A stretch of DNA of 64,000 bases from assembly GCF_001054325.1 (NCBI RefSeq), contig NZ_JVVM01000026.1:1-64000 (forward strand). The letters are read 5' to 3'. The DNA is from Corynebacterium vitaeruminis (GTDB lineage Bacteria > Actinomycetota > Actinomycetes > Mycobacteriales > Mycobacteriaceae). Position 1 is the stretch's first letter; each line of letters begins with the position of its first letter. The notes below the pieces were generated by a model, which saw nothing but the letters and a program-made list of their open reading frames with translations, was not told the origin of the DNA and made no database searches. Below are positions 45,947-56,693 of this stretch, piece by piece. Position numbers and translations under genes: made by a program.

Positions 45947-47011
45947 CTATCGAATCTGTGAAATAGTGCCGATGGTCGTAATCAGCTGATCTCCATCGCT
46001 GTCGACCACGGCGGCTATGGGCATGCGCTCCATCTCATCCGGGCCGACATCGTAGCCCTGCGAGACCTCTGCCGTAATAATCTTTCCGGTCGGGCCTTCC
46101 TCAATGCGCGGATTACGAACGACCACATGAACCAGACTGAACTTCGCGGTGATGTGAACTTCTCCGCGGTAGCTCTCCCCTTCGGCATTGCTGTTGTCAT
46201 TGTCGCGGGTGAATGAGACGACACCGGCCTCAGGCTCTAGGGCACCGTTCTTGGCAGTGACACCACCGCCCAGTGCGCCGAATACTTTTTCCAATGCGGA
46301 CACCGAAATCACTAAATCCTCGCTGGAGGGAGCCGGGGCATTCTTACCCGGAGCGTCCGAGTAACTCAACGGAATGTAAATTTCCTCGGCCTCATTAATG
46401 GAACCGGCCGCCGGGTAGACGTAAATGCCCCAGTTTTCACCAGCTGGGGTCTCTGGCGGGTCAACAACAATGCGAGCCTCAAAGCTGCCGTCATCTGTCA
46501 TCGGGGTAGCCTGACGAGCGATAGAACGTCGCATGTCGACGCCCTGGTTCGGTATCGCCTCGAGAGTTCCAGCCGGCGTGACCCAAGCTATGTTGTCGTG
46601 CGGATGTTTCCGCGACGAGGACGGAGCACCTTCACTTGGCTTCCAGGAGTCTGGGAACGCACTGTAGAGAACGTAAACACCATTGGGCACACCCGGAGGA
46701 ATTGGAAGCGGGTAACCACCACGGTTGGCCGACGGATTGAAACCACTACCGCGAACGATAAGAACATCGCCGCGATGAACCGTGGCACCTTCAGCTGGTG
46801 TGCCGTCCTCAAAAGTGACAGTAACTTCCGGAGATTCGACATACTTCGAATCCTGCGGCTGGAAGTTCTCCGCTGGATTAATCACATTGGGAAAGTTGTC
46901 TGGCACGATTGGCTTCGCAGTTTCAGCCATTGCTGGGGACACAAACGCCGAAAGGACCATGGCACCGGACAGCGAAACCGCAGTAACACCTCTGCGCGCA
47001 CTCTGCCTCAC
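45947..47011 (-). CDS. Secreted HtaA-domain protein, probably iron-regulated
   Basis: The GTG at 47011 has GAGAAGG about eleven bases upstream and begins a compact signal peptide (RQSARRGVTAVSLSGAMVLS, cleavage near AMAETAK). ATGs at 47131 and 47164 would give an implausibly long polar N-region, and the latter lies inside the DtxR box. The N-terminal half is Ig-like (VHRGDVLIVRGSGFNP, GVPNGVYVLYSAFPDSW). The C-terminal part (SYRGEVHITAKFSLVHVVVR, NPRIEEGPTGKIITAEV) resembles the HtaA domain of corynebacterial heme-binding proteins, although a usual histidine is replaced. No C-terminal membrane anchor is seen. Heme or surface binding under iron limitation is a reasonable inference. Confidence 0.72.
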   Translation of the reverse strand: MRQSARRGVTAVSLSGAMVLSAFVSPAMAETAKPIVPDNFPNVINPAENFQPQDSKYVESPEVTVTFEDGTPAEGATVHRGDVLIVRGSGFNPSANRGGYPLPIPPGVPNGVYVLYSAFPDSWKPSEGAPSSSRKHPHDNIAWVTPAGTLEAIPNQGVDMRRSIARQATPMTDDGSFEARIVVDPPETPAGENWGIYVYPAAGSINEAEEIYIPLSYSDAPGKNAPAPSSEDLVISVSALEKVFGALGGGVTAKNGALEPEAGVVSFTRDNDNSNAEGESYRGEVHITAKFSLVHVVVRNPRIEEGPTGKIITAEVSQGYDVGPDEMERMPIAAVVDSDGDQLITTIGTISQIR

Positions 47012-47154
47012 CGGTCGACGCTTGCCTTCTCCAACGGGCGATGATTCGGAGCCGGACGAAAGGCGAGTTTCGTGAGCACCCGCAAGATGGCCGTGGGAAT
47101 GATCGAAAGTCAGGAACTTCAGACTGTGCATACAAGCAATGTACACCCCGCATA

Positions 47155-47173
47155 TTAGGCTCACCTAACCTAG
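47155..47173. promoter_or_regulatory. DtxR-type iron box
   Basis: TTAGGCTCACCTAACCTAG matches the DtxR consensus TTAGGTTAGGCTAACCTAA at 14 of 19 positions, with both outer half-sites (TTAGG and AACCTA) intact. It lies upstream of the HtaA-domain gene and should repress it when iron is plentiful. Confidence 0.7.
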
Positions 47174-49131: not shown

Positions 49132-49399
49132 TTTGCAATGCGTCTCACAGTCTAACCAATCGTTCGGATTTCTTCGGCCATCACACCCACGATTGCCACT
49201 ACCGCTTAACGACGGTACGGAGAAAGCACCCTAAAGGTGCAGGTTGTGGCTGTGCAGCAGCGTTTATCCTGTGCGCCGACCGTTTTATCCACACCCCAAA
49301 AAGTTATCCACAGCTCGCCCATTTTTTCAGCTTTTCAACAAGCACGATTGTGACCGCAGTGTTATATCTTTGTCACGCAAATTTTTTGGGGAGGGAAAA
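49132..49399. other. Divergent promoter region between thiC and the DUF3558 gene
   Basis: This non-coding stretch must hold the thiC promoter and that of the DUF3558 lipoprotein gene. A plus-strand pair TTGTGA (49345) and TATATC (49364) is a possible promoter. A 52-codon extension of the DUF3558 frame into this region has no ribosome site. Confidence 0.5.
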
Positions 49400-50053
49400 T
49401 TGAAAAAGGCGACTACTGCTGCCCTACTGTCAGCACTTTTATTGGGAACAACGGGGATTAGTTGCTCATCGACTGAGACTTCCGGCGAGGACGTTCAACC
49501 TGTCGGTGACAACCTAACAACCATCACCACTGACTCGGGCGTGACATTGCCTGCGGGTGTACTTCCACCTGACAATCCGCCGGAGCCCGGCGATGCTCCA
49601 CTCGGGCCCGATGGGCACTATAACTACGACGCACCCGAATTCATCCTGACCAATCCGTGCGATGACCCGGAGATTATGGGGCGTTTAGACAGGCTGGGGT
49701 TCCGGGAGCAGACGTACATGGAAGGCCGAATCAAAGGAAATAAGCAGATTGGCTGTGTTATCGAATCCGATGCTTCCGACCTACTAAGCATCTGGCATGC
49801 GGCGGTCGCTCACTCGCAACTTGAACGCTACAGTGCTGAGCCTTTGGCTCATCATGACGAGACTTTCAATTGGGTGACGTTCACGCAAACAGAACCACTA
49901 GGAAGTTCCGCCTGTATTGCTTCTGTCGAAACGGAAAAAGGGGCTCTCGGATTCGTTATCGACACAACCGGACAAGATGAACCTGATCCACAACACCGAC
50001 GGTGCGCTCCCGTAAATGAACTGTTAATTGATTACTTGGGGGAAAAATCATGA
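49400..50053 (+). CDS. DUF3558-family lipoprotein
   Basis: A TTG start at 49400 with GGGGAGGG five bases upstream begins a lipoprotein signal (LKKATTAALLSALLLGTTG, then ISC). The mature part is acidic and Pro-rich at first, then shows the DUF3558 hallmark LTNPCDDPEI, followed by GCVIESDASDLLSIW and GSSACIASVET, and ends in RRCAPVNELLIDYLG. Four cysteines in the domain probably form disulphides. DUF3558 is an actinobacterial family of exported proteins often encoded beside PE/PPE-like genes. Its stop overlaps the next start by four bases (ATGA), so the two proteins are made together and may interact. Confidence 0.82.
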   Translation: MKKATTAALLSALLLGTTGISCSSTETSGEDVQPVGDNLTTITTDSGVTLPAGVLPPDNPPEPGDAPLGPDGHYNYDAPEFILTNPCDDPEIMGRLDRLGFREQTYMEGRIKGNKQIGCVIESDASDLLSIWHAAVAHSQLERYSAEPLAHHDETFNWVTFTQTEPLGSSACIASVETEKGALGFVIDTTGQDEPDPQHRRCAPVNELLIDYLGEKS

Positions 50054-51915
50054 TGCATGCCGTAATTCCAGCAATCGACTCTGCAATCCAGCAGTTCAAT
50101 ATTACGAATGTGCTAGCAAGCGGTTCCAGACTTATGCAGCCCAACCTGGCTGGTTACTCGCAGGTTCCGTCACTCCAGCTAGTAGCGACAGAGCACAGCC
50201 TGGCGATTTCCGGTAGTTCCGGAAGCTCTGCAGCCGTCGGACTATCCCTCGGCAAGCAACTCACGTGGGCCCAAACGAATCTCGCTGATTTCCGTCGCGT
50301 AATCACTGAGCACGAGTCCACCATGAACCGGATCCTTCGAAGCATTAACCCATTCAATGGCGACGGTGCTTCCCTTGCTGAAGTAGCGCGAACAAACGGC
50401 GTGTTTCAACGTCGACCAATGTTTGAAGCCGGAAGTCTCACTTTCGCGCCAGTTACTCTTTCTGCAGAACTTGGTCTGGACGTCAAAGCACTACTATCCA
50501 TGTTTTCCTCGACAAACGACGGTGTCGTAGCCGAGGCAATCGCCTACTGGAACAACTTCGCCGAAACTATGACCACGTTGGCCGGAAATCTAACCTCCAT
50601 CTCATCCGGCTTGGTATCGAGCAACAGCGGTGCAGTCTTCTCCGCTGCTGACGCGACAATGAAAGGTCTAGCCGCCCGAGCGACAAGCATCGCTGCCGCA
50701 TCCGAGGTCATGGCCGGTCATCTAGCAGTATTGCCATCCGTAAAGGCAATGGCGGTTAACGCACTGTCTGCGATCGAAGCCGAATCCAAGGCACTCTCAA
50801 ATCCCGGCGCGCAAAAGGCATTTGAGCAGGCTGAGGTAGCGGCTTTTCTTTCTGGTCCGTATACCGCACAGCTACAGACTGCTATTCCCCGAATTCCTAA
50901 CCTGGTTTCCGCCGATGCGGGCAGTGGCGTAACCGCTACAGTGTCCGTTGGAGCCACAGTCGCGGGGCGTTCGGGAACGAGCCAGTTCGGTCTTTCGCCT
51001 GCAGGAATGACTGGAAGCATGCAAGCCGCCAGCGCACCAGTTGGTGCCACCTCAACTGTTCCGGATTCTCCAACACCACAATCCACAGCCGCGAGCTCTT
51101 CCGCTCCCTCGCATGTTCAACCGAGCACTTCGACTTTGTCGAGCCCCACCAATCCGTCCGCTGCACCTGTGCAAACCGCGTCACCCAGCAGTCCAACGAG
51201 CTCCACGCTCACTCCAACGAACCCTACCAATGCGTCAGCCATGCCTCAGTCAAACGCGGCGAATCCAGGAATGGTCGCCCCATCTAGTGCGAATGCTCCG
51301 CAACGAATTCAGGGGACTCATCCTGCACTGTCGTCACAAGGATCTACGCCATACGCAACTCACAGCAGCCGCCCTGCGGGATCCTTCGGTACAGGAACAC
51401 CTGCACGTGTCACACCAGCGGGTAACATCTCGGCACTGCCGGCTTCTGGGAACCCAAACTCCCGACCACAAATCTCAGGACTTCCGACTTCAAGCCCCGG
51501 CCGTGTGCCAACACCAAAAGCGGGTCTTGGGATGGGAGTCGGATTGGGTGCCGGAATCGCTGGTTCTGCCCTGCCGAACGCCGCAAATAGTCCCACGCAG
51601 CGTGGCAGTGGATTGATGAATTCCCTGATCAACGCCCGCAACGGAGCTGCTACAGGCGCGTCGGGCACCGCTGGCGGAACCGCGGGTACCGCTGCTGGAA
51701 ACCGTGGCTCCGGTGTCCTCGCGTCCACCACTGCGGGCAACCGTGGCGGACTGTTTCAAAAGGGCACCACACCATCGGCACGCAAACTAGCTAATGTAGC
51801 CGCTATCAGGGATAACGATGCCGGGGCCTTCGAGCAGAACGAATACCAGAAGGAGCTCTTCGGAGACGCGCCTACCACAATTCCGGCAGTGATTGGCCAC
51901 AACGTCCGAGCGTAA
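50050..51915 (+). CDS. PPE/EspB-like (WXG100-superfamily) protein with long low-complexity tail
   Basis: Residues 1-285 are predicted helical and contain KQLTWAQTNLADFRRVITEH and AIAYWNNFAETMTTLAGNL, with tryptophans and small residues in the pattern of WXG100/PPE helical hairpins. Residues about 330-580 are Ala/Ser/Pro/Thr/Gly-rich and disordered. The last 45 residues (KLANVAAIRDNDAGAFEQNE, then YQKELFGDAPTTIPAVIG) form a conserved-looking C-terminal motif; it has a tyrosine followed by an acidic residue, though not the exact YxxxD/E of type VII substrates. No signal peptide is present, consistent with type VII export. Coupling to a DUF3558 lipoprotein supports this family. No ESX genes are in the window. 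Confidence 0.62.
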   Translation: MMHAVIPAIDSAIQQFNITNVLASGSRLMQPNLAGYSQVPSLQLVATEHSLAISGSSGSSAAVGLSLGKQLTWAQTNLADFRRVITEHESTMNRILRSINPFNGDGASLAEVARTNGVFQRRPMFEAGSLTFAPVTLSAELGLDVKALLSMFSSTNDGVVAEAIAYWNNFAETMTTLAGNLTSISSGLVSSNSGAVFSAADATMKGLAARATSIAAASEVMAGHLAVLPSVKAMAVNALSAIEAESKALSNPGAQKAFEQAEVAAFLSGPYTAQLQTAIPRIPNLVSADAGSGVTATVSVGATVAGRSGTSQFGLSPAGMTGSMQAASAPVGATSTVPDSPTPQSTAASSSAPSHVQPSTSTLSSPTNPSAAPVQTASPSSPTSSTLTPTNPTNASAMPQSNAANPGMVAPSSANAPQRIQGTHPALSSQGSTPYATHSSRPAGSFGTGTPARVTPAGNISALPASGNPNSRPQISGLPTSSPGRVPTPKAGLGMGVGLGAGIAGSALPNAANSPTQRGSGLMNSLINARNGAATGASGTAGGTAGTAAGNRGSGVLASTTAGNRGGLFQKGTTPSARKLANVAAIRDNDAGAFEQNEYQKELFGDAPTTIPAVIGHNVRA

Positions 51916-51952: not shown

Positions 51953-53677
51953 TTAGATCTCCTCCGGCACCATGGAGATCGCACCACACGGGCACTCTTC
52001 GGCACAGACGCCACAGCCCTTGCAGTAGTCGTACTTGAACTCGTACTTTCCAGGTTCGAGTTTAAGTACGGCGTTGTCCGGGCAGACACCGAAACAGTTG
52101 TCACAGCCGAAGCAATTACCGCAGCTCATGCAACGGCGTGCTTCGAACAGTGCAGATTCCTCATCGAGTCCCTGCACAACCTCATCGAAGTTCGAAGCGC
52201 GTCGTGCTCCCTCGAGTTTCACGCGGACCTTCTGCGGCGCATCGGAGTAATACCAGGTCTCCATGCGGTCCAAAGTGGCATCGCCGTGCTTGGCAGGCGG
52301 TTCGTACTCAGCACCAGAAAGGTACGCATCAATGTAGCGCGCAGCCTTCTTACCGTGCCCAATGGCGACAGTGACATTCTTCTCACTCGGCACCATGTCA
52401 CCACCGGCGAATACACCGGGCAGGCCGGTCATCATCTGGTTGTTGACAGTCACGCTGCCACGGTCCGTGGCAATCTCATTTACGCCGTCGAACAGCGTCA
52501 AGTCAGTTTCCTGCCCCAACGCCATCACCAGCGAGTCCGCCGCCAGTTCTTCGTATTCGCCGGTCGGTTGTGGGAACCCGTTTTCGTCGAGCTCCATCTT
52601 CTCAATCTTGATACTGCCGCCATCGACGTGATTAACGGTCGACAGCCACCGCATGGTGATGCCCTCTTCCTCAGCCTCCAGGACCTCGGAATCATGGGCT
52701 GGCATCTGCTCGCGATTACGTCGGTACAAAATCACCGAATCCGCAGCGCCAAGGCGCTTTGCGGTACGCGCCGCGTCAATCGCCGTATTACCACCACCGT
52801 AGACAACGACAGTGCGGCCCAACATCGGCTTGGCTTCGTCGTCCACAGAGGTTTGCTTCTCGACGTCGGCAAGCACGTCAATCGCATCCATAATGTGTGC
52901 AGCCTCACCTGCGGGCACGCCAATGTTCCTCGCCAGACCGGCACCGATAGCGGTGAACACAGCGTCGAATTCCTCTCGCGCGGCGGCGAGATCATCAACG
53001 CACTTTCCCTGTTCAAAGACCACGCCCATGTCAGCGATTCGGCGAATCTCGGCATCGAGAATTCCGCGTGGCAGGCGGTAGGACGGGATGCCGTAGCGCA
53101 TCATGCCACCGGGCTTGTCGGCTTTGTCGCGCACGGTCACACTGTGCCCAAGAAGCGCCAAGTGGTAAGCGGCGGACAGCCCCGACGGACCGGAGCCCAC
53201 TATGAGTACCTTTTTGCCGGTTGGTTCGCAGGCGACTCGGGGCTGCCAGCCCTCTTCGATGGCCTTGTCACCGAGGAAGCGCTCGATAGCGTTGATACCG
53301 ACTGCCTCATCGACTTGTGCGCGGTTGCAGGCAGTCTGACAGGAGTGGTAGCACACACGTCCCATTACTGCAGGCAGCGGGTTGTTTCGCATGATTTCTC
53401 GCCAGGCGTCTTCATAGTGGCCTTCTTCAGCGTGGTAGAGCCACTGCTGAATGTTCTCTCCCGCCGGGCACGCCTTGTTGCACGGCGGCAACAAGTCCAC
53501 GTACACGGGACGCTCTGTGCGCCACGAGCCTGTCTCGTTGGCCAGCGACGATCCTACATCGAGGGAAATCGCAAATGGCAGCAGAGTCTTCTTCGATTCG
53601 CCCTTCTTGGTCTCGCCTGCCGATGCTCCTCCAGCCTTGCCAGCCGGAGTCGATGACTGAGATTCCTGATTGCTCAT
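51953..53677 (-). CDS. NADPH oxidoreductase (GltD-like) fused to a 2x[4Fe-4S] ferredoxin domain
   Basis: The N-terminal part has the cysteine cluster CNKACPAGENIQQW and then VCYHSCQTACNRA, as in the glutamate-synthase small subunit and dihydropyrimidine dehydrogenase. Two dinucleotide-binding folds follow: VLIVGSGPSGLSAAYHLA (FAD) and VVVYGGGNTAIDAARTAKRL (NADPH), with GVFAGGDMVPSEKNVTVAIG. The C-terminal 80 residues contain CMSCGNCFGCDNCFGVCPD and CKGCGVCAEECPCG, a bacterial two-cluster ferredoxin equal to the delta subunit of 2-oxoacid oxidoreductases. ATG 53677 has GGGAGAAAG upstream. It is the last gene of the operon and probably moves electrons between ferredoxin clusters and NADP(H). 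Confidence 0.88.
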   Translation of the reverse strand: MSNQESQSSTPAGKAGGASAGETKKGESKKTLLPFAISLDVGSSLANETGSWRTERPVYVDLLPPCNKACPAGENIQQWLYHAEEGHYEDAWREIMRNNPLPAVMGRVCYHSCQTACNRAQVDEAVGINAIERFLGDKAIEEGWQPRVACEPTGKKVLIVGSGPSGLSAAYHLALLGHSVTVRDKADKPGGMMRYGIPSYRLPRGILDAEIRRIADMGVVFEQGKCVDDLAAAREEFDAVFTAIGAGLARNIGVPAGEAAHIMDAIDVLADVEKQTSVDDEAKPMLGRTVVVYGGGNTAIDAARTAKRLGAADSVILYRRNREQMPAHDSEVLEAEEEGITMRWLSTVNHVDGGSIKIEKMELDENGFPQPTGEYEELAADSLVMALGQETDLTLFDGVNEIATDRGSVTVNNQMMTGLPGVFAGGDMVPSEKNVTVAIGHGKKAARYIDAYLSGAEYEPPAKHGDATLDRMETWYYSDAPQKVRVKLEGARRASNFDEVVQGLDEESALFEARRCMSCGNCFGCDNCFGVCPDNAVLKLEPGKYEFKYDYCKGCGVCAEECPCGAISMVPEEI

Positions 53678-53690
53678 TGCTGCTTTCTCC

Positions 53691-54803
53691 CTACCGCTCA
53701 CTGGAAGTCATTGATTCGCTTGCCGACGTCCCCTGCGGCTTCTCCAGCAAATCCAGGGCGTCATCGTCGATGAGGTTGTACCGGCGGATGTTCCGATCCG
53801 CGCCCGCCTGCAGCTGTTCGAGCACCTGTGGGTCAGCACCCTTTTTGAACAGGTGTGCAAAGCGCCGCTGCAGCTTCAAGTACTCGGTCACCGGTACCGG
53901 ACGGCGAATCTTAGCCACCGAGGTGACCTCGCCGTACTCGGCCTCAAAGACCGGGAACATGCCCGACTGCGTCGCCATGCGAGCGACCTTAATTGTGTGA
54001 TTCGAGGCCGAGCCCCACCCCAGCGGGCATGGCACGAGCACGTGGATGTAGCGCGCGCCGCGGAATTCCATAGCGCGGGTGACCTTGTACTCCAGGTCGC
54101 GCAAGTCCGCGACGGTGGCGGTGGCGACATAGGGAATCTCATGCGCCATCGCGATACGCGGCAAGTCTTTGCCCTGGCCAAAGGTGTTACCCGGGTGCTC
54201 ACCGACCGGCTGTGTGGTCGCAGTTCGGGCGGCCGGCGGGGTTGCGCCGGAGCGCTGGACACCGGTGTTCATATAGGCCTCGTTGTCGTAGCAGATGTAG
54301 AGCACATCATCATTGCGCTCAAACATGCCGGACAGTGGCCCGAAACCGATGTCGACTGTGCCACCGTCACCACCTTGGGCGACCACGCGGACGTCGTCAC
54401 GCCCCTTTGCCTTCATTGCAGCCTGCACGCCGGTCGCGACGGCGGGGGCGTTGCCGAACAGGGAGTGAATCCACGGCAAGTTCCAGGACGTTTCCGGGTA
54501 CGGAGTTGAGAAAACCTCCAGGCAGCCGGTGGCATTTACTGCGATGACTTGTTTATCGGCGGCAGCCACGGCGGCGTCGAGGGCGTAGCGAGCTCCCAGT
54601 GCCTCACCGCAGCCCTGACAAGCGCGGTGTCCCGAGGTCAGCGAGTTGAAACGCTCGGTGCCGGACTGCACGGAGCGCAGCTTTTCCTCGACCAGTCGGT
54701 TACCAATGGCAAAGGAGCCGACTTGGTAGAACTTTGCCTCTTCACGAGACGGAATTTCTGTGGCGCGGTAGTGCGGGGTGGGAAGTGGCGTTGGACTAGT
54801 CAT
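53691..54803 (-). CDS. porB: 2-oxoacid:ferredoxin oxidoreductase beta subunit (TPP-binding)
   Basis: The thiamine-diphosphate site is VVAQGGDGGTVDIGFG through DNEAYMNTGVQRSG, and the cluster cysteines start in HRACQGCGEALGARYA. PLGWGSASNHTIKVARMATQ is the typical beta-subunit end region. ATG 54803 has GGAG nine bases upstream and overlaps the alpha gene by eight bases; the open frame that runs to 55034 lies within porA and is discarded. With the alpha, gamma and fused delta subunits it forms a pyruvate:ferredoxin-type enzyme. Confidence 0.92.
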   Translation of the reverse strand: MTSPTPLPTPHYRATEIPSREEAKFYQVGSFAIGNRLVEEKLRSVQSGTERFNSLTSGHRACQGCGEALGARYALDAAVAAADKQVIAVNATGCLEVFSTPYPETSWNLPWIHSLFGNAPAVATGVQAAMKAKGRDDVRVVAQGGDGGTVDIGFGPLSGMFERNDDVLYICYDNEAYMNTGVQRSGATPPAARTATTQPVGEHPGNTFGQGKDLPRIAMAHEIPYVATATVADLRDLEYKVTRAMEFRGARYIHVLVPCPLGWGSASNHTIKVARMATQSGMFPVFEAEYGEVTSVAKIRRPVPVTEYLKLQRRFAHLFKKGADPQVLEQLQAGADRNIRRYNLIDDDALDLLEKPQGTSASESMTSSER

Positions 54804-56073
54804 TGTGGGTCTCCTCGGAGTAGTGACCGACCATGGCCTTGTTGGATACATCCTTAAGCAGGTTTTCCGGGATGGATCCGGAGCGACGCTGCAGCTTTTC
54901 GCGCTCGAGTTCGCGGTCAACGAGCTCTCGGTCGAGGTCGAGGAAAGTCGTATCCTCAACTTCGTCGCGAACGGCCTTGTCCAGGTAAGAGTGCAGCGAG
55001 CTCTTCGTGATGTCGCGTCCACCCAACCCGGCAATCAGCTCGTGGCAGATGAATCGACGACCGCGCATCGCAGCGCGGCAGTGGGACGACACAATGCCGC
55101 CGATACCGACCGAAAATGCCTTCTCCAGCACGATGAATCGCTTCGCGTTACTCAGGGCTTCACGCACTGCTTCCGTCGGGAAGGGGCGGAAGGAGACCAG
55201 GGACAGCACACCAATCTTCTCCCCTGCTTCACGACGCTCGTCCACGACATCTCGGAGGGTTCCGGTGACTGAGCCGAGGCAGACAATAATGGTCTCGGCA
55301 TCCTCAGTGCGGTACTTGTGCAGCAGACCACCGGAAGCACGGCCGAAGATCCCCTCAAATTCCTTTTGCACACGCGGAATGATGTCCAGCGCCTGCAGCT
55401 GCTTGTGGTGAGCGAGGTAGCGCACCTCGGTGAACGCCTCGGGCCCAACCATGGCACCGATGGAAATCGGGTCTGCCGGATCGAGCACCTGGCGGGGCTC
55501 GTACGGTGGCAGGAATTCGCTGACCTGGTCCGCTTCTGGAACGTCAACCTGCTCCATCGCGTGTGTCAAAATGAACCCATCCATGCACACCATGACGGGG
55601 ATTGAGAGTTCTTCGGCAATTTTGAAGGCCTGAACATGCAGGTCGGCTGCCTCTTGGTTGTCGATGGCGTAGAGCTGCAGCCAACCGGAGTCACGCTGAC
55701 TCATCGAGTCGGTATGGTCGTTCCAGATGTTAATCGGCGAACCGATGGCACGGTTGGCCACTGTCATCACGATGGGCAGCCCCAGACCAGAGGCGTTGTA
55801 GACGGCCTCCACCATGTAGAGCAGCCCCTGCGAAGCGGTTGCGGTATAGGAGCGAGCACCTGCTGCCGAGGCGCCAATCGATGCCGACATCGCAGAAAAC
55901 TCGGATTCTACGTTGACATATTCGCAGCCTGTTAGCTCGCCAGATTTCACCAGAGCCGACAGAGCTTCCACGATGTGAGTCTGCGGGGAAATGGGATAGG
56001 CGCAGATAACTTCTGGACGACATGCTGCGACGGTCTGCGCTACCGCCTGGCTGCCCTCAATTTGCTTAAGCAT
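54796..56073 (-). CDS. porA: 2-oxoacid:ferredoxin oxidoreductase alpha subunit
   Basis: YPISPQTHIVEALSALVKSG is the TPP-pyrimidine domain signature, and NVESEFSAMSASIGASAAGA with SYTATASQGLLYMVEA continues it. The segment INIWNDHTDSMSQRDSGWLQ is close to archaeal and bacterial PorA, favouring pyruvate over 2-oxoglutarate. The C-terminal part has the transketolase-C-like fold (IGVLSLVSFRPFPTEAVREA). The length of 425 is normal. It is eight bases downstream of the gamma gene. Confidence 0.92.
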   Translation of the reverse strand: MLKQIEGSQAVAQTVAACRPEVICAYPISPQTHIVEALSALVKSGELTGCEYVNVESEFSAMSASIGASAAGARSYTATASQGLLYMVEAVYNASGLGLPIVMTVANRAIGSPINIWNDHTDSMSQRDSGWLQLYAIDNQEAADLHVQAFKIAEELSIPVMVCMDGFILTHAMEQVDVPEADQVSEFLPPYEPRQVLDPADPISIGAMVGPEAFTEVRYLAHHKQLQALDIIPRVQKEFEGIFGRASGGLLHKYRTEDAETIIVCLGSVTGTLRDVVDERREAGEKIGVLSLVSFRPFPTEAVREALSNAKRFIVLEKAFSVGIGGIVSSHCRAAMRGRRFICHELIAGLGGRDITKSSLHSYLDKAVRDEVEDTTFLDLDRELVDRELEREKLQRRSGSIPENLLKDVSNKAMVGHYSEETHND

Positions 56074-56081
56074 CTACTCGC

Positions 56082-56693
56082 CTACTTTTCCTGTGCTGGG
56101 TTTTTCGCGGCTGCTGGGTTTTGTGCTGCTTTCTTTTTCTCATTGACCAGCTCATATGCTGCCTTGGCCGCGGCTACGTTCTTCTCGCCGACAGACTTTG
56201 AGAAGCGTTGCATAACCGCATCGGCTACCGACTGCATCTCAATGAGCCCGGTCAGCGCGGCCATTCCTCCGAGCAGCACGGCATTCGGGACGGTACGGCC
56301 GGTGTATTCACGTGCGATGTCGGTGGCAGGAATTGTCATAAAGTGCCCCGCCGGTTGGCGCGCTTGCAGCTCGGACAATCCGAGCTCAGCGGTGCGTTTC
56401 GAGGAGTTAATGAGCACATACCCCTCGTCGGAAAGCCCCGAAAACACGTCCAAAATCGGCAGCAGCGTCGGATCTTGGATGATTAATAGATCCGGGTGGA
56501 GCACCGGTTCGCGGGTGCGAATCTCGCGATCACTAATGCGGCAATACGCGACAACCGGCGCACCTGTGCGTTCAGAACCAAAGGATGGAAATGCCTGTGC
56601 GTGACGCCCCTCCGCGAAAGCCGCCATCGCGATGAGATCAGAGGCGGTGACTACGCCTTGCCCTCCGCGTCCGTGAATTCGTACCTCGACCAT
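56082..56693 (-). CDS. porC: 2-oxoacid:ferredoxin oxidoreductase gamma subunit
   Basis: EVRIHGRGGQGVVTASDLIA is the gamma-domain glycine-rich start, followed by PSFGSERTGAPVVAYCRI. The last 30 residues are Lys/Ala/Pro-rich (EKKKAAQNPAAAKNPAQEK), an extension beyond the family. It is the first gene of the four-gene operon porC-porA-porB-oxidoreductase and is divergent from the MFS exporter. The promoter region is 128 bp, shared with the TetR operator region. Confidence 0.92.
   Translation of the reverse strand: MVEVRIHGRGGQGVVTASDLIAMAAFAEGRHAQAFPSFGSERTGAPVVAYCRISDREIRTREPVLHPDLLIIQDPTLLPILDVFSGLSDEGYVLINSSKRTAELGLSELQARQPAGHFMTIPATDIAREYTGRTVPNAVLLGGMAALTGLIEMQSVADAVMQRFSKSVGEKNVAAAKAAYELVNEKKKAAQNPAAAKNPAQEK

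Follow-up and report, generated by a model that had tools for sequence, protein, structure and literature searches.

A hypervariable cassette spanning a DUF3558-type lipoprotein gene and a PPE/EspB-like partner gene points to a possible self/non-self system in Corynebacterium

The 64,000-nucleotide stretch of Corynebacterium vitaeruminis DNA analyzed here (the window; positions 1 to 64,000 of contig NZ_JVVM01000026.1, from an assembly of 2.49 Mb in 35 contigs) contains a gene for a DUF3558-type lipoprotein directly followed by one for a PPE/EspB-like protein, which we call the partner. We find that in otherwise near-identical copies of this pair recombination replaces a single unit, composed of the DUF3558 domain and some 30-72 N-terminal residues of the partner, and that some genomes carry lipoproteins in surplus. 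An original prediction, made from the window alone, had read the pair as an orphan type VII substrate with a dedicated lipoprotein, a view that is partly supported here. With the hypervariable block shared by both genes and the lipoprotein surplus taken into account, the likely function moves from a substrate plus helper to a polymorphic effector or identity protein plus its cognate immunity or recognition lipoprotein. Judged from sequence, the two proteins quite probably form an interacting, co-diversifying pair. Tentatively, and as a possibility rather than an expectation, we propose a genus-wide self/non-self system that would operate through the ancestral ESX-4 secretion system, with effector specificity in the first helices of the partner, a matched DUF3558 lipoprotein, a shuffled cross-gene cassette and, in some species, spare lipoproteins kept as an immunity stock.

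We compared alleles of the pair from related genomes and paralogues within single genomes. The lipoprotein signal, the lipoprotein linker and the partner core are common to them, and the intervening block differs; in some groups, such as that of genome G068, the linker is variable as well. Column differences were counted in 156 close pairs drawn from 92 loci, with cores 80-99.5% identical. Most columns of the lipoprotein domain differ in 40-80% of these pairs, its four cysteines in 0%. Partner residues 1-30 differ in 37-69% of the pairs, and beyond residue 72 the figure is ~2-15% per ten-residue bin. Residues 61, 62, 65, 68 and 72 are elevated (32-53%), and the i, i+4, i+7, i+11 spacing of 61, 65, 68 and 72 is compatible with a single helix face. 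Residues 47, 50 and 54 (31-47%) and a few others, for example 114 and 116 (31-35%), are elevated too.

The divergence of this block is also high at synonymous positions. Synonymous divergence was computed for 40 pairs with cores at least 97% identical. It is similar in the lipoprotein linker (0.20) and in the core (0.195) but reaches 0.61 for the lipoprotein domain and, within the partner, 0.57 for residues 1-30, 0.48 for residues 32-60 and 0.58 for residues 61-72. Values so far above those of linker and core indicate that the block was imported by recombination and not solely mutated in place. Between loci L015 and L017, the synonymous difference (pS) of the linker is 0.06, and the nonsynonymous difference (pN) is 0.62 in the lipoprotein domain, 0.71 in partner residues 1-30 and 0.01 in the core.

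The two halves of the block are inherited together. Across 153 pairs from 14 groups and 70 loci, which are not independent of one another, the distance between lipoprotein domains correlates with that between partner residues 2-30 (r=0.89) and hardly with that between cores (r=0.10). The partial correlation of domain and N-terminus given core and linker is 0.88, and none of 2000 within-group permutations reaches the observed r. Pairs with a similar N-terminus (n = 21) have a mean domain difference of 0.11 (range 0.00-0.27), and those with a different N-terminus (n = 103) one of 0.63 (range 0.30-0.87). At the thresholds used there are no grossly discordant pairs, and 29 of the 153 are intermediate. 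The second patch was tested as residues 47, 50, 54, 61, 62, 65, 68, 69 and 72, a choice made after the column analysis and thus partly circular; its mean difference is 0.47 between copies with different cassettes and 0.14 otherwise, and the remaining residues of 32-80 give 0.18 and 0.04. Its partial correlation with the domain is just 0.22. In the C. amycolatum group, four sequences, too few to count, show a Thr-Glu/Ile-Asn difference within the lipoprotein that segregates with the allele of the N-terminus.

The pair is nearly universal in Corynebacterium. A search with the N-terminal 290 residues of the partner matched 17 of 41 genomes, including the window's own and a chance match in G027. 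Profiles reached further: one built from 19 members matched 187 of 201 Corynebacterium genomes at E<=1e-5, and a broader one of 57 members matched 194 of the 201 at E<=1e-3. Our sample comprised 167 loci with a partner gene and 148 distinct partner sequences; L019 and L023 were judged chance matches and excluded from the counts. A lipoprotein-type open reading frame (ORF) ends or lies no more than 30 bp upstream of the partner start in 135 of the 148 distinct copies, in line with the dedicated partnership originally predicted. The script recognized 126 of these ORFs and nine were added by eye (L008, L039, L082, L106, L133, L161, L162, L160 and L164), L039 being counted although its signal region falls outside the open frame. 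Six further script matches were more distant and not counted, and of these L006 at least resembles another lipoprotein kind. Also uncounted were two visibly broken copies (L059, L151), a masked one (L103) and one at a contig edge (L038). In one partner copy of genome G180 (L163/L290), the place of the lipoprotein directly before the partner is taken by an ORF that contains a GHSYGS motif and by eye resembles an alpha/beta hydrolase.

Lipoprotein and partner numbers are not equal everywhere. The lipoprotein profile matches 181 of the 201 genomes; 294 lipoprotein matches stand against 267 partner matches of the broader profile, with both present in 179 genomes and neither in 5. Lipoproteins outnumber partners in 19 genomes, and partners outnumber lipoproteins in 24. 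A surplus of at least two, however, is found for lipoproteins in 8 of 200 genomes and for partners in 0 of 200; genome G212, with at least 16 lipoproteins and at least 11 partners, was set aside from this count. The lipoprotein to partner ratios are 7:3 in G041, 3:1 in G109, 3:1 in G119, 9:1 in G134 (53% complete), 4:1 in G137, 12:7 in G157, 10:2 in G180 and 9:5 in G198. The narrower partner profile had given 10 genomes with such a surplus, and the broader gives these 8 plus G212. Of the 20 genomes without a lipoprotein match, 15 have a partner; the profile thus misses copies, and lipoproteins are likelier to be under- than overcounted. We read the DNA at 20 sites. In G212, a single partner adjoins tandem arrays of four (L284), three (L285) and two (L286) lipoproteins, and G157 has three in a row (L292). 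A 12-kb stretch of G180 contains five lipoprotein matches and no partner (L288), and lone lipoproteins with no partner in the 7.5-12 kb read were found at L289, L295, L296 and L299. The surplus, which is confined to a minority of genomes, argues for immunity.

The lipoprotein itself carries a signal with a lipobox (LLLGTTGISC), and its variable domain has cysteines at positions 65, 97, 150 and 180, numbered from the residue after the lipid-bearing cysteine. The window copy does not match PF12079 (DUF3558), yet it aligns, including all four cysteines, with homologues that do; 17 of 28 aligned homologues match at E<=1 (best 1.7e-16), and on this basis the predicted DUF3558-type assignment is probable. 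PF12079 also has matches at E<=1 in four control genomes, one of them that of a C. glutamicum laboratory strain. Pfam lists DUF3558 as a family of unknown function. The lipoprotein profile had no match in the PDB, Pfam and NCBIfam scans of both window proteins gave nothing useful, and an AlphaFold2 model from a two-sequence alignment was poor (predicted local distance difference test score, pLDDT, 36.0). The literature searched here and below was mostly open-access and excluded bioRxiv preprints; for DUF3558 it returned nothing related, judged by title.

By profile comparison, the partner is PPE-like by descent in residues 140-280, and it is not a PPE protein by motif or Pfam cut-off. Members of the family are mostly 520-670 residues long, with a ~285-residue helical region, a low-complexity tail and a conserved end. 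Aligned with hhalign, the partner profile matches PPE-like proteins of another actinobacterial family with 93% probability (E 3.2e-7; reversed control 0.3%), but reaches only 16.8% (E 0.0015; reversed 0.1%) with ten PPE-profile loci that belong to the window's own family but to other genera, presumably the mycobacteria and related groups. Trp-167 is unchanged in 57 of 57 aligned partners. The WXG/PPE-like helices of the original prediction stand for their PPE-like part; the W-x-G motif is not conserved, occurring in 40 of 148 N-domains compared with 31 in shuffles. None of 148 partners has Pro-Pro-Glu among its 20 N-terminal residues. PF00823 (PPE) matches neither the window partner nor anything else in its genome, and it is matched weakly by 2 of 19 partner homologues (best 0.0037).

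Among PDB sequence matches of the partner, Staphylococcus aureus EsxA is the best natural one (E 0.011), a designed coiled coil ranks above it (E 0.00089), and EspB is absent. The AlphaFold2 model of the partner N-domain, again from a two-sequence alignment, is of low confidence (pLDDT 49.9) and places a helix at residues 5-24. For this weak model, Foldseek found nothing at E<=0.001, and its matches to two PPE4 chains (6uuj) and to EspB (7p0z), with E-values of 1.2, 2.2 and 3.4, are not significant. In a VIA-align comparison, EspB (Z 7.5-7.6) stands among unrelated helical bundles and below the Z level stated for such folds, and absence of a family from that listing excludes nothing. Searches of plasmid and phage records with the N-domain gave no match. 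The partner was correctly predicted to lack a signal peptide, and no Sec or Tat signal was detected. Its disordered tail, thought to span 250 residues, is in fact longer, with ~330 residues from position 291. The conserved-looking end is confirmed: P-x-V-I-G occurs in 96 of 141 full-length copies, and a looser form in 117 of 141, both patterns having been set after seeing examples. Ends resembling ...FGTDERTAPPVIG also occur at loci of other actinobacteria. As a family detector, a profile of the C-terminal motif alone was rejected, since it could not be separated from its reversed control.

We searched for relatives outside the genus. An order-wide search with the partner over 150 genomes gave matches in 7, one of them the window's own and six of them weak. 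Four of these weak matches (L097, L100, L101 and L102) resembled, on reading, other WXG-type or hydrolase loci and were dropped; at L097 and L101, in another actinobacterial family, WXG-type helical genes are followed by ORFs that by eye resemble separate effector and immunity genes. L098 and L099 encode WXG/PPE-like ORFs with the end ...FGTDERT-PPVIG, immediately preceded by a DUF3558-type lipoprotein and followed by an EspG-like ORF, both assigned by eye. We assembled a comparison set of 40 PPE-profile loci, for which eight genomes (G037, G227, G237, G246, G255, G262, G269 and G276) of a single other actinobacterial family were used. A P-x-V-I-G-like end, a pattern chosen after examples, is present at 32 of the 40 loci, and our script placed a lipoprotein directly upstream at 15. 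Searched against these loci plus L098 and L099, the Corynebacterium lipoprotein-domain profile matched 13 ORFs at E<=0.01 (best 3.1e-7) and the partner profile 6 (best 1.2e-5), with 0 matches for either reversed control. PPE-like relatives of the partner do exist outside mycobacteria, where the original prediction had called such proteins poorly described.

The host genome encodes an ESX-4-type locus on another contig, with EccB, mycosin, EccD, EccC, an Rv3446c-type gene and two WXG100 genes. EccB scores below its curated cut-off (121 compared with 154 bits), and the remaining genes score above theirs. No ESX genes were found among the scanned neighbors of the pair, as had been predicted, but the term orphan does not fit a nearly genus-wide pair in a genome with such a locus. 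ESX-4 is considered ancestral among ESX systems, and the one functional study in Corynebacterium among the literature matches listed describes it as functional in C. glutamicum, where it secretes ExsI, a WXG100 iron-binding effector for iron uptake that is distinct from the partner (PMC12607788). The EccC profile does not discriminate, as every genome matches it at E<=0.001. Genomes G042, G151 and G212 have several EccC matches, some across the whole TIGR03924 model and others to 291-672 only, and some corynebacteria seem to carry more than one ESX system.

How might the pair function? The sequences directly support an operon, its conservation, a co-inherited hypervariable block, a recombination signature and a lipoprotein surplus in some genomes. 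Several features of effector-immunity systems are found here, namely matched variable segments in adjacent genes, a constant remainder, and excess or orphan genes of the immunity type. The chances that the lipoprotein is the cognate surface immunity or recognition protein of an ESX-4-exported PPE/EspB-like effector appear to us nearly balanced. The lipoprotein would be anchored outside the membrane and would bind the N-terminal region (~residues 1-72) of its own partner. The protein that co-varies with the partner is a lipoprotein, so the partner too, despite having no signal peptide, probably has its site of action outside the membrane. Helical and with a long flexible tail, it could be exported without a signal by the ESX-4-type system encoded elsewhere, which we infer to be its natural route. 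A matching lipoprotein would signify self, and would bind and neutralize, or recognize, a partner that arrives or has just been exported; a non-matching partner would kill, arrest or exclude the neighbor. If selection favors new specificities and disfavors mismatched recombinants, domain and N-terminus would travel as one cassette, and extra lipoprotein copies may be retained as an immunity repertoire. Export, direct binding, toxicity and the effect of a mismatch are all inferred elements of this model.

Several observations weigh against it. No toxin domain was recognizable in domain scans of the window protein and its homologues. The YxxxD/E secretion signal is not enriched (26 of 148 N-domains compared with 45 in shuffles), and EspG exceeds its cut-off in 0 of 101 Corynebacterium genomes, with one weak match, so the support for ESX export is indirect. 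In G107, G129 and G184, which have a partner, the best EccC match among the best five candidates of each is ~1e-28, the strength of FtsK. Most genomes have one of each gene, and in 24 the partner is in excess, always by one. Some of the surplus lipoprotein matches, such as L293 and L300, are fragments of disrupted genes, and the narrower partner profile had missed partners in G041, G075 and G002, those of G041 and G075 being found by the broader one. At L008 and L133 the N-terminal hydrophobic segment of the upstream ORF lacks a lipobox cysteine, and at L163, L174 and L177 no lipoprotein ORF is seen upstream of the partner. Physical linkage alone also yields correlated distances and could explain part of the co-inheritance. 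In the C. amycolatum group, L003 and L087 differ by a pN of 0.20 in the N-terminus and of 0.03 in the lipoprotein domain; some N-terminal changes thus need no large domain change, which speaks against a strict lock.

With no toxin domain recognized and a one-to-one count in most genomes, a non-lethal identity system is an alternative candidate. The lipoprotein would then serve as the allele-specific receptor for the partner, itself a self-marker, and a mismatch would alter behavior and not viability. The adjacency of the genes, whose variable regions match and whose remainder is constant, suits this explanation, and in Proteus mirabilis IdsD/IdsE binding is reported to decide self, with export of the marker by a dedicated secretion system and no effect on viability (PMC6682164). 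We nevertheless regard it as unlikely, because the lipoprotein arrays better match an immunity stock than a single marker and the receptor here lies outside the membrane. More improbable still is an arms race with phage or host, in which the exposed lipoprotein domain diversifies under attack, the docking N-terminus of the partner must follow, and surplus copies serve as decoys or antigenic variants. The lipoprotein domain is indeed as variable as the partner N-terminus, and dispersed copies within one genome differ precisely in the domain; by itself, however, an attack on the lipoprotein leaves the equal variability of the N-terminus unexplained, and no corynebacterial lipoprotein serving as such a phage receptor was seen, by title, among the literature matches listed. 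Least probable is the view of the original prediction, an ordinary orphan ESX substrate with a dedicated lipoprotein chaperone or anchor, its polymorphism due to relaxed constraint and hitchhiking: it accords with the tight coupling and conservation of the pair, and with a swapped block that is one contiguous stretch, so that linkage explains part of the correlation, but not with lipoprotein arrays and lipoproteins without a partner nearby, with divergent cassettes imported between near-identical copies, or with a second variable patch that, although chosen post hoc and with the low partial correlation given above, follows the cassette.

The predicted ATGA-overlapping pair is real, both ORFs being present at the coordinates given in the table together with the other features.

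Table. Features of the lipoprotein-partner pair in the window; residues refer to the partner.
Feature	Position	Strand	Details and basis
Two TTATCCACA 9-mers, 5' of the pair	49285-49293 and 49304-49312	+	Only two matches in 64 kb
Lipoprotein-gene ribosome-binding site	49390..49399	+	GGAGGGAAAA 5' of TTG 49400; GGAGGG
DUF3558-type lipoprotein gene, 217 aa	49400..50053	+	TTG start; lipobox Cys codon 49463-49465; ORF read
Variable DUF3558-type domain, four conserved Cys	49628..50050 (start approximate)	+	Alignment, column differences
Partner-gene ribosome-binding site, within lipoprotein gene	50038..50042	+	GGGGG
PPE/EspB-like partner gene, 621 aa, without signal peptide	50050..51915	+	ATG start 50050; ATGA overlap (50050-50053)
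Hypervariable N-terminal segment, residues 1-30	50050..50139	+	Close-pair column differences; co-inheritance
Second variable patch, residues 61-72 (61, 62, 65, 68, 72)	50230..50265	+	Close-pair differences
Conserved PPE-like helical module, residues 140-280, W167	50467..50889	+	hhalign columns 140-262
Low-complexity Ala/Ser/Gly/Pro/Thr tail	50920..51850	+	Composition; residue 291 onward, ~330 residues
Conserved C-terminal motif LFGDAPTTIPAVIG	51856..51897	+	Homologue comparison

At least four consecutive G precede the partner start in 15 of 18 homologues displayed. C. amycolatum SK46 (L003), the sole match in a single contig-collection scan for the pair, has the same two genes with the same overlap and a partner that is 85% identical over its best segment. 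Both neighbors of the pair lie on the opposite strand, thiC before it and a 2-oxoacid:ferredoxin oxidoreductase set after it, and the pair therefore stands alone. The two TTATCCACA 9-mers, which we take to be DnaA-box-like, are the only copies in the 64 kb (0.25 expected; 2 of 100 shuffles reach as many). In the SK46 counterpart the first 9-mer reads TTGTCCACA, with one base changed, and the second is retained. The oxidoreductase set (51953-56693, minus strand) is of the pyruvate/2-oxoacid:ferredoxin type in Corynebacterium, with POR_N, POR, TPP and Fe-S flavoprotein domains. Beside thiC, a ~405-residue protein with an Ala-rich signal-like segment is encoded at 45947-47164 (minus strand) and has no Pfam match at E<=1e-5.

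If the proposed self/non-self system exists, ESX-4 would gain a polymorphic substrate and DUF3558 a function, and the lipoprotein-immunity idea from the type VII secretion system (T7SS) of S. aureus would extend to PPE proteins. An allele-matched system would also provide a simple test bed, in a genus with laboratory strains and with natural alleles whose differences lie mainly in the cassette, as well as a ready hypothesis for other actinobacterial PPE proteins that adjoin the same kind of lipoprotein.

We compared the pair to known systems. No description of it was recognized among the matches listed for corynebacterial T7SS/ESX-4, PPE, WXG100, lipoproteins and immunity. Among the closest are the sets of DUF3558-type lipoprotein, PPE/WXG-like protein and EspG-like protein in the other actinobacterial family and at L098 and L099, where the order is the same if a lipoprotein is found and both proteins are homologous by profile; there, by eye, an EspG-like ORF follows, and EspG is absent in Corynebacterium. 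EspB of ESX-1 has a ~280-residue helical region and then a long disordered tail in one chain, an architecture resembling that of the partner, whose family does not conserve the PE/PPE motifs. The idsD and idsE genes of P. mirabilis are adjacent, the IdsE receptor is not known to be a lipoprotein, and no homology to our pair is to be expected. In that system, according to the available excerpt, allele-matched binding decides self and IdsD is exported by a secretion system (PMC6682164), as we propose here, although that system is of type VI. In S. aureus, the lipoprotein TilA is described in the available part of the source as encoded upstream of the T7SS toxin TslA, binding its N-terminal domain and varying in copy number (PMC10730906). 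This T7SS lipase toxin and its DUF576 immunity lipoprotein resemble our pair in having the lipoprotein gene directly upstream of the substrate gene and multi-copy lipoprotein clusters. TslA, as described there, has an N-terminal lipase domain and a helical C-terminus, whereas the partner N-terminus is helical and PPE-like with no recognizable enzyme, and the lipoprotein here is of the DUF3558 type, from the phylum Actinomycetota. Strings of EsaG and TipC immunity genes of T7SS toxins are likewise tandem and non-identical, and the excerpted text reports that they recombine through conserved blocks, and that TsaI forms such a string without clear recombination (PMC9484751). In our pair, by contrast, one exchanged block spans parts of two different genes. 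The kind of system is thus known, and its realization as a cross-gene cassette on a PPE-like protein and a DUF3558 lipoprotein is new.

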